DNA from: Candidatus Saccharimonadota bacterium
Lineage (GTDB): Bacteria > Patescibacteriota > Saccharimonadia > Saccharimonadales > Saccharimonadaceae
DNA length: 33,126 bases
Direction: 5' to 3'
NCBI GenBank assembly: GCA_009778675.1
Contig: WRFU01000010.1
Coordinates: 1 to 33,126, forward strand
Numbering within the stretch: position 1 is the first letter of the stretch; every line of letters begins with the position of its first letter. The position numbers were made by a program, and so were the translations under genes. Below the pieces are notes generated by a model. That model ran no database searches, was not told the DNA's origin, and saw only the letters and a list, made by a program, of their open reading frames with translations. This document shows, in pieces, positions 239 to 28,419 of the stretch.

Positions 239-1750
239 TTACTTGGCGTATTCTATGGCACGGGTTTCGCGAATAACATTTACCTTAATGATACCCGGAT
301 ACTGCATGGTGCTTTCGATTTTGTTGGCAATATCGCGGGCTAGTTTAATAGCCGTTAGATCGTCAATTTGGGTTGGCTGTACAATGACGCGGATTTCACG
401 ACCGGCCGAAATAGCATAGGCTTTGTCGATGCCATCAAAGGTTAAAGCGACGTTTTCTAAATCACTCATGCGCTGGGCAAAGTTTTCGGCGCTAACATTG
501 CGCGCCCCTGGCCTGGCGGCACTAATCGCATCAACAATTTTTACAATTAAGGCTTCGGGGGTGGTGGGTTCAATATCACCATGATGCGCGGCCATAGCAT
601 GTACTACGGCTTCTTTCATACCGTATTTTTCGGCTAATTCGGCTCCAATTTCGGCGTGTTTACCTTCAATTTTATGGGTCACAGCTTTGCCGATGTCGTG
701 TAGCAAAGTAGCAGTTTTGGCGACACGTTTGTCGGCGCCGATTTCTTCGGCGATCATGCCGGCCACGTGCGCCATTTCAATACTGTGCAGTAACACGTTT
801 TGGCCATAACTGGTACGGAATTTAAGCTCGCCCAGCAAGCGTAAGATTTCTTTAGGGATGCCAACAATGCCGACTTCGCGGGCAGCGTCTTCGCCGGCGC
901 GATTGATTTCTTTGTCGATCTGCTTTTCGGCTTTTTGCACGGCGTCTTCGATGCTACTGGGGTTAATCCGACCGTCTTTCATCAAAAGTTCTAGCGCTAG
1001 CCTAGCTACTTGGCGACGTACAGGGTCGAAACTACTTAATACTACCATGCCTGGGGTATCGTCGACTAGCACATCAACACCGGTGGCACGCTGCAAAGCC
1101 TGAATATTGCGACCTTCTTTGCCAATAATTCGGCCTTTCATTTCGTCGTCTGGCAACTTTAGGCTAGTTACAGTACGATCGGCCGTGACCTCGCTGCTCA
1201 TGCGTTCCATGGCCGTTAGCAAGACGGTTTGCGCCAGTTCGTCAGGTTCTTCGCTTAGTTCTTTTTGCTCTTTTATGACTAAATCTTTAAGATCATTTTT
1301 GATATCTCTTTCGGTCATAGTTAACAGTTTTTGCTTGGCTTCGTCTTTTTTAAGACCAGCGATTTTTTCTAGTTTATCTTGTTGTTTGGTGCGAATTTCA
1401 CGAATTTCGTTTTTTAGATCTTCGATTTCGGCTTCACGCTGGCGAACATTTTCGGTTCGCCTATCTAGATCGTCTAACTTTTTGTCTAGATTGTTTTCGC
1501 GTTCCACCAAACGATTTTCGGTTTTTTTCCATTCTTTGCGATGTTCATTTTCTTCTTTTTTGGTGCTATCAGTAATTTCGATAGCATCTTTTTTGGCCTT
1601 TAGCACGATATCGCTGGCCTCGTTTTTGGCTTTTTTGACCAGTTGGTCTAGTTTGTCTTGGTTACCTTTAACCTTGGTTTTGTTGTAATAAACAATTCCG
1701 CCGCCACTAACAGCAGCACCGATTGCAAAAGCAAGAATTGCTTCTAACAT
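239..1750 (-). CDS. rny: Ribonuclease Y
   Basis: RNase Y is a membrane-anchored endoribonuclease that starts mRNA decay. The 503-residue product has a single N-terminal membrane helix (about residues 2-20), a long charged coiled coil (about 25-180), a KH RNA-binding domain with the GRIIGKEG motif near residue 205, and an HD phosphohydrolase domain with LLHDIGK near residue 350. Length and domain order match the family (about 520 aa). I chose the ATG at 1750 because an AAAGGA Shine-Dalgarno lies six bases upstream and the membrane helix follows at once; an upstream extension to 1807 adds 19 residues unlike the family N-terminus. A -10-like TATAAT at 1860-1865 gives a leader of about 100 nt. 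It is probably monocistronic, since the next gene has its own promoter. Confidence 0.95.
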   Translation of the reverse strand: MLEAILAFAIGAAVSGGGIVYYNKTKVKGNQDKLDQLVKKAKNEASDIVLKAKKDAIEITDSTKKEENEHRKEWKKTENRLVERENNLDKKLDDLDRRTENVRQREAEIEDLKNEIREIRTKQQDKLEKIAGLKKDEAKQKLLTMTERDIKNDLKDLVIKEQKELSEEPDELAQTVLLTAMERMSSEVTADRTVTSLKLPDDEMKGRIIGKEGRNIQALQRATGVDVLVDDTPGMVVLSSFDPVRRQVARLALELLMKDGRINPSSIEDAVQKAEKQIDKEINRAGEDAAREVGIVGIPKEILRLLGELKFRTSYGQNVLLHSIEMAHVAGMIAEEIGADKRVAKTATLLHDIGKAVTHKIEGKHAEIGAELAEKYGMKEAVVHAMAAHHGDIEPTTPEALIVKIVDAISAARPGARNVSAENFAQRMSDLENVALTFDGIDKAYAISAGREIRVIVQPTQIDDLTAIKLARDIANKIESTMQYPGIIKVNVIRETRAIEYAK

Positions 1751-1859
1751 ATCTGTCCTTTCCACTCTAGATGTGGGTGCCCTACTACTGAACACCACTG
1801 ATTTCAATCTATAAGTTGTAATTTAAACTTTTCAAACGCCCGAAAATTGGACTAACGCC

Positions 1860-1941: not shown

Positions 1942-4257
1942 TTAGTTGGCGATGGCGGTATAGAGTACGGTTTGTTTGTAAGTGCCAGACGTTTGGCTGC
2001 CGCTGGTTGATACGCCAAAACTTACAGTGTGAGCGTTAGGTATGGTCGGATTGGCGCTGACAGTTTGAGCTACCAGACCAGTAGCGCCAACAGCATTTGG
2101 CAAACTAGCATAACCGGCTGACATATTAGTGACTCGCCAACCCCAACTACTGCCAGATAAACTGCAAGGTGCAGCATTGGTACAGCTACTGCCAAGCGTC
2201 GGAATGGTAGCACCTGTAGCGGTGTGTTGCAGATTGGTATTACCGCCGCTTGTAGCCGAAATATACAAGCTGTAACCAGTAGGCATATTAGTTTGTACCT
2301 GTATAGAACTATCCGCATTAGCGGTTTGGCCAGGTGCTATAGTGCCTAAGTCGACATTACTTTGTGCCGAAACTGTAAGATACGGCGATTCATAGGTGTA
2401 GCTGGCTGGCAGGGTAGCCTGGCCAGCACCAGTGATAACCGACACATCCACTGTGCCTTCAGCGTGCGCTGGCGCGGTACAGGTTAACTGTGTGTCACTT
2501 AACACCGTGACGTTCGTACAGGGTTGGCCGCCAACTAGCACCACTGGCACGACATCATCGGCAAAATATAATCCCGACCCGCCAACATCCCAGCCGCCCC
2601 AGCCAAAACCAACAGCTGGAGTTAAACCTTCCCGCCCTGCTGTATATTGGCCATTAGCATAGCCAATTCTAAGCGCCACACTAGTAGCGGTAGTGGTCGT
2701 TAATGGGTATGCCAAATTAAATTTTTGGATACCGTTACAAGGTGAGCTAGAGCATGTATTGAGATAATCATCGCCCGAAAAAGTGAACGTTATACCAACT
2801 GATGTGATATTAGACAGTGGCGGGATATTAAATGTTTGATCAATCACCCCAGTTATATCATCTGGTAAAACAGTTGGGTCGAAAGCCGGGGTAGTATAGG
2901 CAGCTGAATCTTCCTGATAAAAAATCAATGAAACGTTTGTGAACGTGAAAGTTTCGCCGTGCCCACCCTGATCTTGACCACCTGGTACGTCAAAATCAAC
3001 ATTATCGCAACCATTTGTCATTAGTAGTGCCCCTTGGGTTGTTGAAGTATGGTTATTTAGCAATTGACCAGCTGGTGGTGATTCTAGTGCAGCTGCTGGA
3101 GTAAGTGAACCATATGAGTCAGGTAAACTATCACTAATCGCCGCACAGCCTGCTAAACCCCCCGCTCCACTAAACAATGGCGCCCATTGGGCAGGTGTGA
3201 AGCCACTGCCGGTCACAGTAAGTGTATTGCCACCGTCTGGCGGGCCACTAGTGGGGTCAACCACCGTGATAGTTGGCGGGTTGGCATAGGTAAAACTATT
3301 AGCAAAAGTAGTCGTGCCCGCGCCAGTGATCACCTGAATATCGACCGTGCCCGGAGCATGAGCCGGTGTAGTACAAGTTAACTGGGTATCGCTGATCACA
3401 TTCACATTAGTGCAAGGTTGGCCGCCGACAGTAACCCGGGTCAGCACATTGTGAATAATCAGGTACGAACCAAGATCAGGTAAGTTTAACGTGTCGCAAG
3501 AGCCATCCCCACTAGTGCCAGTTATTGCTTGACCGCCCCAAAACAAGGCTACTACGTTTTGATTACCCGGGCCGCCGCTCCAGCTAGTACACTTGTCAAT
3601 CGGACCGTTAATATAACTCATCGCAAAATCTACGCTTGGTGATGCTGTAGTATAAACTGGTTGTGCAAAATTAAAGCTAATTGTATCTGGCGGCGTATTG
3701 CATGGCGTGCCAGTATACCAGTCACAATATTCACCTGGATTATAAGTTAAAGCCACCGATGTTGCGCCGTTTAGTTGTGGAATTGCCACCGATTGCTTAA
3801 TTTGACCAGCACTATTATTAGCAGTGGCGGCCGGATCAGTTAAGTTAGCAGTCGCTACCGCAGTGCTACCGTTATAAAATGTCAACACCATAGCATGTAA
3901 ATCAGCAGGCGTTTCGTTATTACAACCATCATCACTGATAACACCGGCATCTTGAACGGTACTACCACCAATACTATAATTCGCAGTGCCTGGCTGCAGG
4001 GTCGCCGATGAACTACTCATAGAGCCAATAGAAAAATCGCCCAATTCTCTCCAATCAGAAGTTTCACAGACAGCCCAAGAATAAGACGCGCCACCGCTAA
4101 ACCATAGTTGCTGCGGGCTAGGCGTGAAGCCACTACCGTTAATAGTAATCGTGTCACCACCGGCTGGCGAGCCGTGGCTAGGCACAGTGTTAGTGACCTG
4201 TAACGCATGAACAATCGGAATAATTAGGCTAAGTGTCAATATAACACCAATAACCAA
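1942..4257 (-). CDS. Secreted TIG/IPT-domain surface protein with duplicated inserts
   Basis: A large extracellular protein, probably an adhesin or envelope component. After a hydrophobic signal segment come two TIG/IPT-type units, each opening with a GSGFTP motif and closing with VGGQPCTN, SDTQLTC and FTY/YTY motifs. Each unit carries an insert of roughly 200 residues between these halves, and the two inserts resemble each other (shared PCN and IP-L-TSV features), so the array arose by duplication. The last ~145 residues form a separate domain (SSWGWRV, then SGTY...LYTAIAN) shared with the gene at 10178-10786. No sortase motif or C-terminal membrane helix is seen. The start is uncertain: TTG at 4257 is the first conventional start but gives a signal peptide without positive charges. 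The frame stays open to 4326, and ATT at 4317 lies five bases after an AGGGAG site and adds a K/R-rich n-region. Ligand unknown. Confidence 0.75.
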   Translation of the reverse strand: MVIGVILTLSLIIPIVHALQVTNTVPSHGSPAGGDTITINGSGFTPSPQQLWFSGGASYSWAVCETSDWRELGDFSIGSMSSSSATLQPGTANYSIGGSTVQDAGVISDDGCNNETPADLHAMVLTFYNGSTAVATANLTDPAATANNSAGQIKQSVAIPQLNGATSVALTYNPGEYCDWYTGTPCNTPPDTISFNFAQPVYTTASPSVDFAMSYINGPIDKCTSWSGGPGNQNVVALFWGGQAITGTSGDGSCDTLNLPDLGSYLIIHNVLTRVTVGGQPCTNVNVISDTQLTCTTPAHAPGTVDIQVITGAGTTTFANSFTYANPPTITVVDPTSGPPDGGNTLTVTGSGFTPAQWAPLFSGAGGLAGCAAISDSLPDSYGSLTPAAALESPPAGQLLNNHTSTTQGALLMTNGCDNVDFDVPGGQDQGGHGETFTFTNVSLIFYQEDSAAYTTPAFDPTVLPDDITGVIDQTFNIPPLSNITSVGITFTFSGDDYLNTCSSSPCNGIQKFNLAYPLTTTTATSVALRIGYANGQYTAGREGLTPAVGFGWGGWDVGGSGLYFADDVVPVVLVGGQPCTNVTVLSDTQLTCTAPAHAEGTVDVSVITGAGQATLPASYTYESPYLTVSAQSNVDLGTIAPGQTANADSSIQVQTNMPTGYSLYISATSGGNTNLQHTATGATIPTLGSSCTNAAPCSLSGSSWGWRVTNMSAGYASLPNAVGATGLVAQTVSANPTIPNAHTVSFGVSTSGSQTSGTYKQTVLYTAIAN

Positions 4258-4360
4258 CCCAAATAACAGGGGCGGTCTTCTACTTAGTGTGATTTTGACA
4301 CTTTTAATACGGATAATCGGCTCTCCCTATAATGGTTAAGCCACAACTCTACTACTATCT

Positions 4361-4390
4361 ATTTTACCCCCCCCCCTATAAGAAAGGCAA
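4361..4390 (-). promoter_or_regulatory. Promoter of the TIG-domain gene with a G10 spacer tract
   Basis: On the minus strand, -35 TTGCCT (4385-4390), an 18-bp spacer and -10 TAAAAT (4361-4366). Ten of the 18 spacer bases are an uninterrupted G run (4367-4376) touching the -10. Gain or loss of one G would change the spacer to 19 or to the optimal 17. The promoter lies just past the tsaB stop codon and about 40-45 nt upstream of the likely translation start. Confidence 0.6.
4367..4376. repeat. Homopolymer C10 (G10 on the minus strand)
   Basis: Ten consecutive C on the plus strand, the longest single-base run I see in the window. Its placement between the promoter hexamers of a surface-protein gene matches simple-sequence contingency loci. 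Confidence 0.9.
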
Positions 4391-4399
4391 GATCTATGG

Positions 4400-4786
4400 T
4401 TATTTTTTAGGTGTGGTAATGTTGGGGCGACCACCATATTCGGGTAACACTAACTGCTGGTTTTTGCCGGCTTTGAGCGCGTTTTTGGCAGCAGTCCGCC
4501 AATTTTTACCACTAAAACCGACAATTGGGATATTTTGGGCATCAGCGATAGTGTTTAATACCGTCGCGCCAATGCGCAAGCCAGTAAAACTACCTGGGCC
4601 AGCCATAAAGGCCAAGCCGGTCAGATCATCCCAACTAGCGTGGTTCTTGGCAAGACAGTCTTGCAAAAACTTGAGCAAGCCGTGTGCTAAATTGCGATCG
4701 GCTTGCCACTGATAGTGCATGAAGGTTGAACTTTCATGTAGGTAGACGTGGCAGGTTGAGCCTGATGTGTCTAAGAATAAAATCAT
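4400..4786 (-). CDS. tsaB: tRNA threonylcarbamoyladenosine protein TsaB, short form
   Basis: TsaB is the TsaD-paralogue scaffold of the complex that makes t6A37 on ANN-decoding tRNAs. The 128-residue product starts with the ASKHA-fold LFLDTSG motif and has the family signature GPGSFTGLRIG near residues 64-74. It is much shorter than the usual ~230 residues: after IPIVGFSG it passes directly to a tail (LPEYGGRPNIT) like the end of full-length TsaB, so the middle of the C-terminal subdomain is missing while both ends remain. The ATG overlaps the tsaE stop by four bases, implying translational coupling. tsaD is not in this window. The shortness looks like lineage reduction, not damage, because the frame is intact. 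Confidence 0.85.
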   Translation of the reverse strand: MILFLDTSGSTCHVYLHESSTFMHYQWQADRNLAHGLLKFLQDCLAKNHASWDDLTGLAFMAGPGSFTGLRIGATVLNTIADAQNIPIVGFSGKNWRTAAKNALKAGKNQQLVLPEYGGRPNITTPKK

Positions 4787-27401: not shown

Positions 27402-27913
27402 TCCGTTTCCTTTATATATCGCAGGATTTGCTTAAAAGTTTCTTCGGGCGTCTGATCTGTTGAGTCGATAATAGTCGCCAACTTAGTTTTCATGAGTGGC
27501 GATTTATAATGATATTTTATTCTCTCAATTTCCCAATCATTTAGTTGCGGCCGGGTTTTAGAACCAGCCAAGACTTTTTTAATATCAGGTTTTAATAAAA
27601 ACCATCTGGCGTTATATTTAATGCTTTTTAACCCATTTATAAAATATTGCCGTGTTGCGTCAGTTATTGGGTAATCCAGGATAACATCGTTACCATTTTC
27701 AAGATTAGACTTTAAGAATCGTAAAATCTCGGCATGAATCTCCGGCAATATTTTGTCCAAAGATTCCCACGATTTATCACGTTTTACTACTGCGGCGATG
27801 CCATCACCATCTAAATATATAAAGTTACGTAGTTCCAGTGCTAACAATCGCGAAATAGTAGTTTTACCACTGTGTACCGATCCGCTAATAGAAATTAACT
27901 TTGGCTTTGTCAT
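27398..27913 (-). CDS. P-loop kinase-like protein, substrate unknown
   Basis: A 171-residue protein with Walker A GSVHSGKTT (residues 11-19), a YLDGDG segment and an R-x-x-x-N-D-W lid-like region. The overall shape fits small kinases of the shikimate/chloramphenicol-phosphotransferase/zeta-like group, which phosphorylate small molecules. No motif fixes the substrate. It overlaps both neighbours by ATGA, so it is tightly coupled to the second kinase upstream and the acetyltransferase downstream. AT-rich composition like the rest of the accessory block. Confidence 0.7.
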   Translation of the reverse strand: MTKPKLISISGSVHSGKTTISRLLALELRNFIYLDGDGIAAVVKRDKSWESLDKILPEIHAEILRFLKSNLENGNDVILDYPITDATRQYFINGLKSIKYNARWFLLKPDIKKVLAGSKTRPQLNDWEIERIKYHYKSPLMKTKLATIIDSTDQTPEETFKQILRYIKETE

Positions 27914-28419
27914 CTTTCCTCCTCCAAAATTCTTTTCATATCTTTACGATTTTTTATAACTATAACGTTTATTGGGTACTTGCGGAGTTTCAACTTTACA
28001 TTCACCATTCGTGTTGGGAACTTCTTAATTATAAAGCACGATAAATGCATCAACGTATCATCGCCCCCCCCCACTCTAGTTTCACCGTATAAATTCACTC
28101 TTAGCCATCGCCCAAAAACACCGCTAACACTTTTTAATCTATTAGATTCAAAAATGATAGCCAAATCAGCTTGCTTGAATCGCTCATCGATCGACTCAAA
28201 AACGTTGCCCTCGATAATCCAAGACTTGTTTTTAAATAATTTCTCATATTCTTTTTGAAATTCCGCACCAGTAATTCGTTGTCGATTTTTATCCCAACGG
28301 ATATCATCTAAATGATACACGGCAATATTCAATTTTTGACCAAGCTGGCGTGCAAACGTTGATTTACCAGTTGCTGGCCAACCAAATATTGTAATCTTTT
28401 TTGCATCGTTAATGTTCAC
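27910..28419 (-). CDS. FlaR-type adenylate-kinase-related P-loop protein
   Basis: A 169-residue P-loop protein with Walker A GWPATGKST (13-21), a VYHLDDIRWD strand and a SWIIEGN strand, matching the 'DNA topology modulation'/FlaR-like kinases, whose true substrate is poorly known. Codons 116-119 contain nine consecutive G on the coding strand (28064-28072); a one-base slip would truncate the protein about 50 residues early. The gene overlaps vanX-like and the next kinase by ATGA. It is part of the accessory block inside lepA. Confidence 0.75.
   Translation of the reverse strand: MNINDAKKITIFGWPATGKSTFARQLGQKLNIAVYHLDDIRWDKNRQRITGAEFQKEYEKLFKNKSWIIEGNVFESIDERFKQADLAIIFESNRLKSVSGVFGRWLRVNLYGETRVGGGDDTLMHLSCFIIKKFPTRMVNVKLKLRKYPINVIVIKNRKDMKRILEEER
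28064..28072. repeat. Homopolymer C9 (G9 in the coding strand)
   Basis: Nine C on the plus strand within the FlaR-like gene, encoding the end of Val116 and Gly117-119. The second-longest homopolymer G/C tract I see in the window. Confidence 0.9.

Follow-up and report, generated by a model that had tools for sequence, protein, structure and literature searches.

A G10 tract in the spacer of a predicted TIG-protein promoter, one of many long G tracts in a Saccharibacteria genome

A run of ten Gs upstream of a gene for a secreted TIG-domain protein is probably, at odds that we put at roughly three in four, the slippage-prone spacer of a sigma-70-type promoter that would switch or grade this gene, and it would belong to a group of such loci. 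It lies in a stretch of 33,126 bp (the window), a single contig (C10) of a Candidatus Saccharimonadota genome (G000) comprised of 825,230 bases in 39 contigs. Replication slippage would add or remove Gs in the tract, and the changed G count would alter the distance between the -35 and -10 boxes, by which transcription of the TIG gene would be switched or graded, as for porA of Neisseria. Among the 28 long G tracts of the genome, the intergenic ones (about half, many touching a -10 box) would act as switches of promoter spacing, and those within coding regions (also about half) would switch translation. The rate of slippage, its effect on transcription and its use by an episymbiont to vary its pili and surface proteins are what we infer from this arrangement.

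Structure of the TIG promoter

Read on the minus strand from 4390 to 4361, the sequence is TTGCCT-TTCTTATA-GGGGGGGGGG-TAAAAT, in which a -35 hexamer (TTGCCT, 4385-4390) and a -10 hexamer (TAAAAT, 4361-4366) are separated by an 18-bp spacer, and the G10 homopolymer (4367-4376) occupies the part of the spacer that abuts the -10 box. The hexamers, coordinates, tract and spacer length given in the earlier note were exact when the minus strand was read again. An independent promoter scan recovers the same promoter with 9 of 12 matches and a spacer of 18, where about 0.7 chance sites are expected in a region of equal size. The geometry of sigma-70 promoters would put the transcription start at 4350-4356 (minus strand), close to 4354 and thus some 7 nt beyond the -10 box, and would give a leader of about 37 nt; a probable ribosome-binding site (AGGGAG, 4323-4328, minus strand) is located 5 nt before an ATT codon at 4317.

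The tract is long enough for instability and beyond chance expectation, and its position between the two boxes is that of spacer-slippage contingency loci of the porA, opc and fim type, as judged from the sequence and from recurrence in relatives. A contingency promoter in which the G tract sets the -35/-10 spacing had already been proposed for this site; its layout agrees with that proposal, which is strongly supported by comparison with other loci of the same genome, with relatives and with promoter copies that differ in tract length. Slippage during transcription was considered as well and rejected, since the tract precedes the -10 box and would hence not be part of RNA made from the TIG promoter.

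The TIG gene and its neighbourhood

The downstream gene (1942-4317, minus strand) encodes a protein with four IPT/TIG stretches (PF01833, E=5e-30) and a signal peptide (IIRIKSVKITLSRRPPLLFGLVIGVILTLSLIIPIVHA), which by prediction make it a surface or host-interaction protein. No ATG, GTG or TTG is found near the ribosome-binding site, the reading frame is open from the ATT at 4317, and the gene seems to start at this codon; the alternative start, TTG at 4257, would cost the signal peptide its positively charged end. The secreted TIG protein that had been placed downstream of the tract is retained, now with four TIG stretches and a signal peptide, and with ATT 4317 as the probable start of its gene.

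Directly upstream on the same strand lies tsaB (4400-4786), whose stop codon precedes the tract by 24 bp, and downstream of the TIG gene lies rny (239-1807, minus strand), which encodes RNase Y. A scan found no terminator-like site between the tsaB stop and the tract, so that read-through may blur the switch. It is therefore conceivable, although we hold it to be unlikely, that most transcription of the TIG gene stems from read-through out of comEC-tsaE-tsaB, and that the tract modulates only a basal level; such read-through at this gene would be compatible with control by slippage at the other loci. Against it stands the gene order of two relatives (L127 and L128), in which rny directly follows tsaB with no TIG gene in between: the TIG gene and its promoter were either inserted here or lost there, and the gene probably arrived with a promoter of its own. 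The nearest relatives yielded no ortholog of the TIG promoter, and the length of the TIG tract is that of one assembly.

G tracts across the genome

A search of the whole genome for eight Gs yielded 28 separate G/C runs of at least 8, namely three of length 8, twelve of length 9, twelve of length 10 and one of length 11; the 25 runs of at least 9 compare with 1.7 predicted in 825 kb by a first-order Markov model. In 125.7 kb of sequence, made up of stretches chosen for holding tracts (the count of 28 covers the whole genome), the numbers of G/C runs of lengths 4 to 7 are 282, 39, 4 and 2, followed by 3, 12, 12 and 1 for lengths 8 to 11. This second peak identifies the long tracts as a separate class and not as the tail of a distribution. 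The longest A/T run in the same 125.7 kb has a length of 8 and was seen once.

By reading of their context, about 16 of the 28 tracts are intergenic and about 12 lie within reading frames. At eight of the 28, a hexamer that matches TATAAT in five or all of its six positions lies no more than 2 nt downstream (binomial P ~8e-7), compared with one when the upstream side is read backwards, one on the opposite strand and 2.9% of random positions. Seven of these eight tracts are intergenic, the exception being L039, which is in a coding region. Among these eight, the arrangement is G10-TATAAT at L038, G10-TATGAT at L041, G10-TATACT at L043, G9-c-TATACT at L053, G10-ca-TATACT at L057 and G10-cg-TTTAAT at L058. 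Locus L057 is the promoter of a second large TIG protein, the only further one found in this genome and one that carries RCC1 repeats as well, so that two different TIG genes have the same type of promoter. A -35 box of the TTGC or TTGT type, as in the TIG promoter, is present at other tract promoters of this genome and at those of a relative (G039).

Loci L038 and L040 have a leader motif in common (TGCGAGAGAAAGT), which is located tens of nt past the tract and precedes genes with apparent TTG starts. A plasmid search gave no match.

Long homopolymers should be unstable in organisms that lack mismatch repair. The MutS_V domain was found in none of 61 genomes of the family, with positive results for 11 of 14 controls, and a published survey detected no MutS and no MutL in Saccharibacteria (PMC8406219). 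Relatives that have no tracts also lack MutS; its loss can thus account for the instability of the tracts and not for their presence, while their placement beside -10 boxes suggests selection.

These data bear on the explanation that the tracts are neutral homopolymer expansions in the absence of mismatch repair, or an artefact of assembly. The missing MutS would fit it, as would the fact that most of the genomes are metagenome assemblies and that contigs C6 and C19 end at such tracts. Against it, A/T runs are not expanded (maximum 8), the tracts are placed beside -10 boxes in a single orientation, the same layout is seen in independent assemblies, and many relatives without MutS are free of tracts; we regard it as very improbable.

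The two contigs concerned break in similar AT-rich sequence, C6 at its end (40051-40060, G10) and C19 at its start (36-46, G11), as if a repeated promoter had interrupted the assembly.

Tract promoters in related genomes

The pattern of eight Gs followed by TANNNT (GGGGGGGGTANNNT) occurs 290 times in 394 genomes of the family, against 56 occurrences of the backwards control, and is present in 109 of the 394 genomes, against 35 for the control. Runs of nine Gs are found in 25 of 61 sampled genera of this one family and are missing from the other 36, which makes the trait patchy. Across the phylum, the strict pattern is rare, with 6 of 287 genomes carrying it, and no claim is made for all Patescibacteria.

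In ten relatives, 40 tract sites were read, which had been selected on the -10 side only. Most of them display a TTGAC(A/T) or TTG-type -35 box upstream and a TATAAT-like box downstream of the tract, and the mean best -35 score, taken over 42 sites, is 4.90 versus 3.58 in shuffled flanks. Where the -35 box is good, the spacer has a mode of 18 and a range of 14 to 20. Whether the -35 box is near or far, the tracts are about 9 to 10 long, and many spacers are therefore far from 17. In the earlier note G9, through a spacer of 17, was taken as the optimum; with 18 as the commonest spacer in these relatives, G9 is a candidate only, and G10 or another length could be the ON state of the TIG promoter.

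The products encoded downstream of tract promoters include TIG proteins, type IV prepilins (N_methyl), collagen-like proteins and other exported proteins. A hydrophobic N-terminus is predicted for 23 of 46 open reading frames behind tract promoters, versus 8 of 27 background genes of the window; the targets therefore include more than surface proteins. In the congeners G020, G072 and G096, the tract sites look less like clean surface-gene promoters.

Differences in tract length

Four near-identical promoter sets or pairs within single genomes allow tract lengths to be compared. In G243, the tracts are G15 and G10 in two promoter copies whose 40 upstream bases are identical; G238 possesses a near-identical pair with G10 and G9, and a promoter present in four copies with G10, G10, G9 and G10; and in G020 one near-identical pair is equal in length (one of four near-identical promoter pairs). 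The copies that differ within a genome thus read G15/G10, G10/G9 and G10/G9. Tract lengths in relatives reach 12, 15 and 19. Among the three congeners G020, G072 and G096 no orthologous promoter pairs were found, only the equal-length pair within G020. For the promoters of G238 and G243, a search of 174 genomes of the genus to which these two belong gave no homologues in the other genomes.

An alternative against which the lengths have to be weighed is a G tract that serves as an invariant promoter element, such as a rigid spacer or a site where a protein binds, in a subset of promoters, and that is kept for its function and not for its variability. Such an element would agree with the clustering of lengths at 9 and 10 in many genomes (46 and 33 of 88) and with tracts that touch or nearly touch the -10 box. 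It is at odds, however, with near-identical promoter copies whose sole or main difference is the length of the tract and with lengths as high as 12, 15 and 19; it would not explain why similar tracts are found within reading frames, often out of frame; and the tracts are absent from most genomes of the family. We consider a fixed element improbable, and a spacer that varies by slippage the better account of these promoters.

Tracts within reading frames

Six of about 11 clear cases of coding tracts are out of frame in the assembly, a share fairly near the two thirds that freely varying tract lengths would give. The reverse transcriptase gene of locus L050 (G000, contig C17, 1046-2015) is the clearest: a G9 tract just before the GIPIGNLTSQ motif separates two halves that are encoded in different frames. 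A homologue on contig C47 of G021, a genome of another genus, is broken at the same site across a G7 tract, while the homologues in G003, G009 and G058 are encoded in a single frame and have no tract. The combination of off-frame assemblies and intact homologues, which characterizes coding phase variation, was found for the reverse transcriptase; coding variation of this kind concerns tracts of the genome other than the TIG tract.

Locus L037 (G000, contig C1, 1188-2060, minus strand) encodes a protein with a sigma-70 region 4 and a weak region 2; a C9 tract is located near the start of the gene, the frames differ on either side of it, and the product is possibly a phase-variable sigma-like factor. 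Locus L039 is a tract-split gene with an AAT acyl-transferase domain. The splits of L037 and L039 are read from open frames alone.

Comparison with known systems and biological meaning

In Neisseria meningitidis, porA has a poly-G tract in its promoter spacer, and its transcription is altered when a single G is added or lost (PMC3899988). The TIG promoter is similar in that a poly-G tract lies in the spacer of a predicted surface-protein promoter. It differs in belonging to an unrelated organism and gene; moreover, many promoters of this genome have their tract directly against the -10 box. Phasomes of poly-G/C tracts have been described for Campylobacter and Helicobacter (PhasomeIt, PMC6321876; H. 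canadensis, PMC2823697), and as in these genera, tens of G/C homopolymers are found in a small genome, both intergenic and coding, with many out of frame; in contrast, about half of the tracts are intergenic here, many of them at a fixed promoter position, and the phylum is Patescibacteria. A hypervariable repeat gene has been reported for a Gracilibacterium (PMC6851277), which is likewise a case of repeat-based local variation in a CPR bacterium, but there a coding 9-mer repeat in one gene alters the protein sequence, and neither a homopolymer nor a promoter switch is involved.

In the open-access literature, we found no report of G-tract control in Saccharibacteria or other CPR bacteria, in agreement with the earlier note, in which no description of such control was known for this phylum. 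Promoter switching by poly-G tracts is known elsewhere, and what is new, within the open-access literature searched, is the phylum and the notably uniform layout.

We lean, by a modest margin, towards the broader view that many Saccharibacteria have a true phasome, in which dozens of G-tract switches in promoters and coding regions would bring random variation to pili, to adhesin-like proteins and to a small number of regulators, among them the sigma-70-like protein and the reverse transcriptase. Such a phasome would be hypermutable through the lineage-wide loss of MutS and MutL, and would serve as bet-hedging for finding and holding bacterial hosts.

The matter bears on how episymbiotic Saccharibacteria recognise and change their hosts; type IV pili are reported to affect host binding (PMC12206443). 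If G tracts switched prepilins and adhesin-like proteins, a clonal culture would be a mixture, and the host range could shift without new genes. The tracts would then also provide a ready list of genes important at the cell surface, and the known absence of mismatch repair in Saccharibacteria would be given a consequence.

Additional features of the window

The records JAIRRY010000029.1, JAIROX010000001.1 and JAISOF010000030.1 (L127-L129) are the three best matches to the RNase Y of the window and are labelled as Candidatus Nomurabacteria. Their RNase Y is 80-83% identical to that of the window and groups with Saccharibacteria, and the label is probably erroneous. A promoter-like sequence, TTAATA-18-TATAAT, is present on the opposite (plus) strand at 4304-4333 of the window, directed antisense toward tsaB. 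Inside a P-loop kinase-like gene (27910-28419), and in its reading frame, the window possesses a second tract, a G9 (28064-28072, minus strand).
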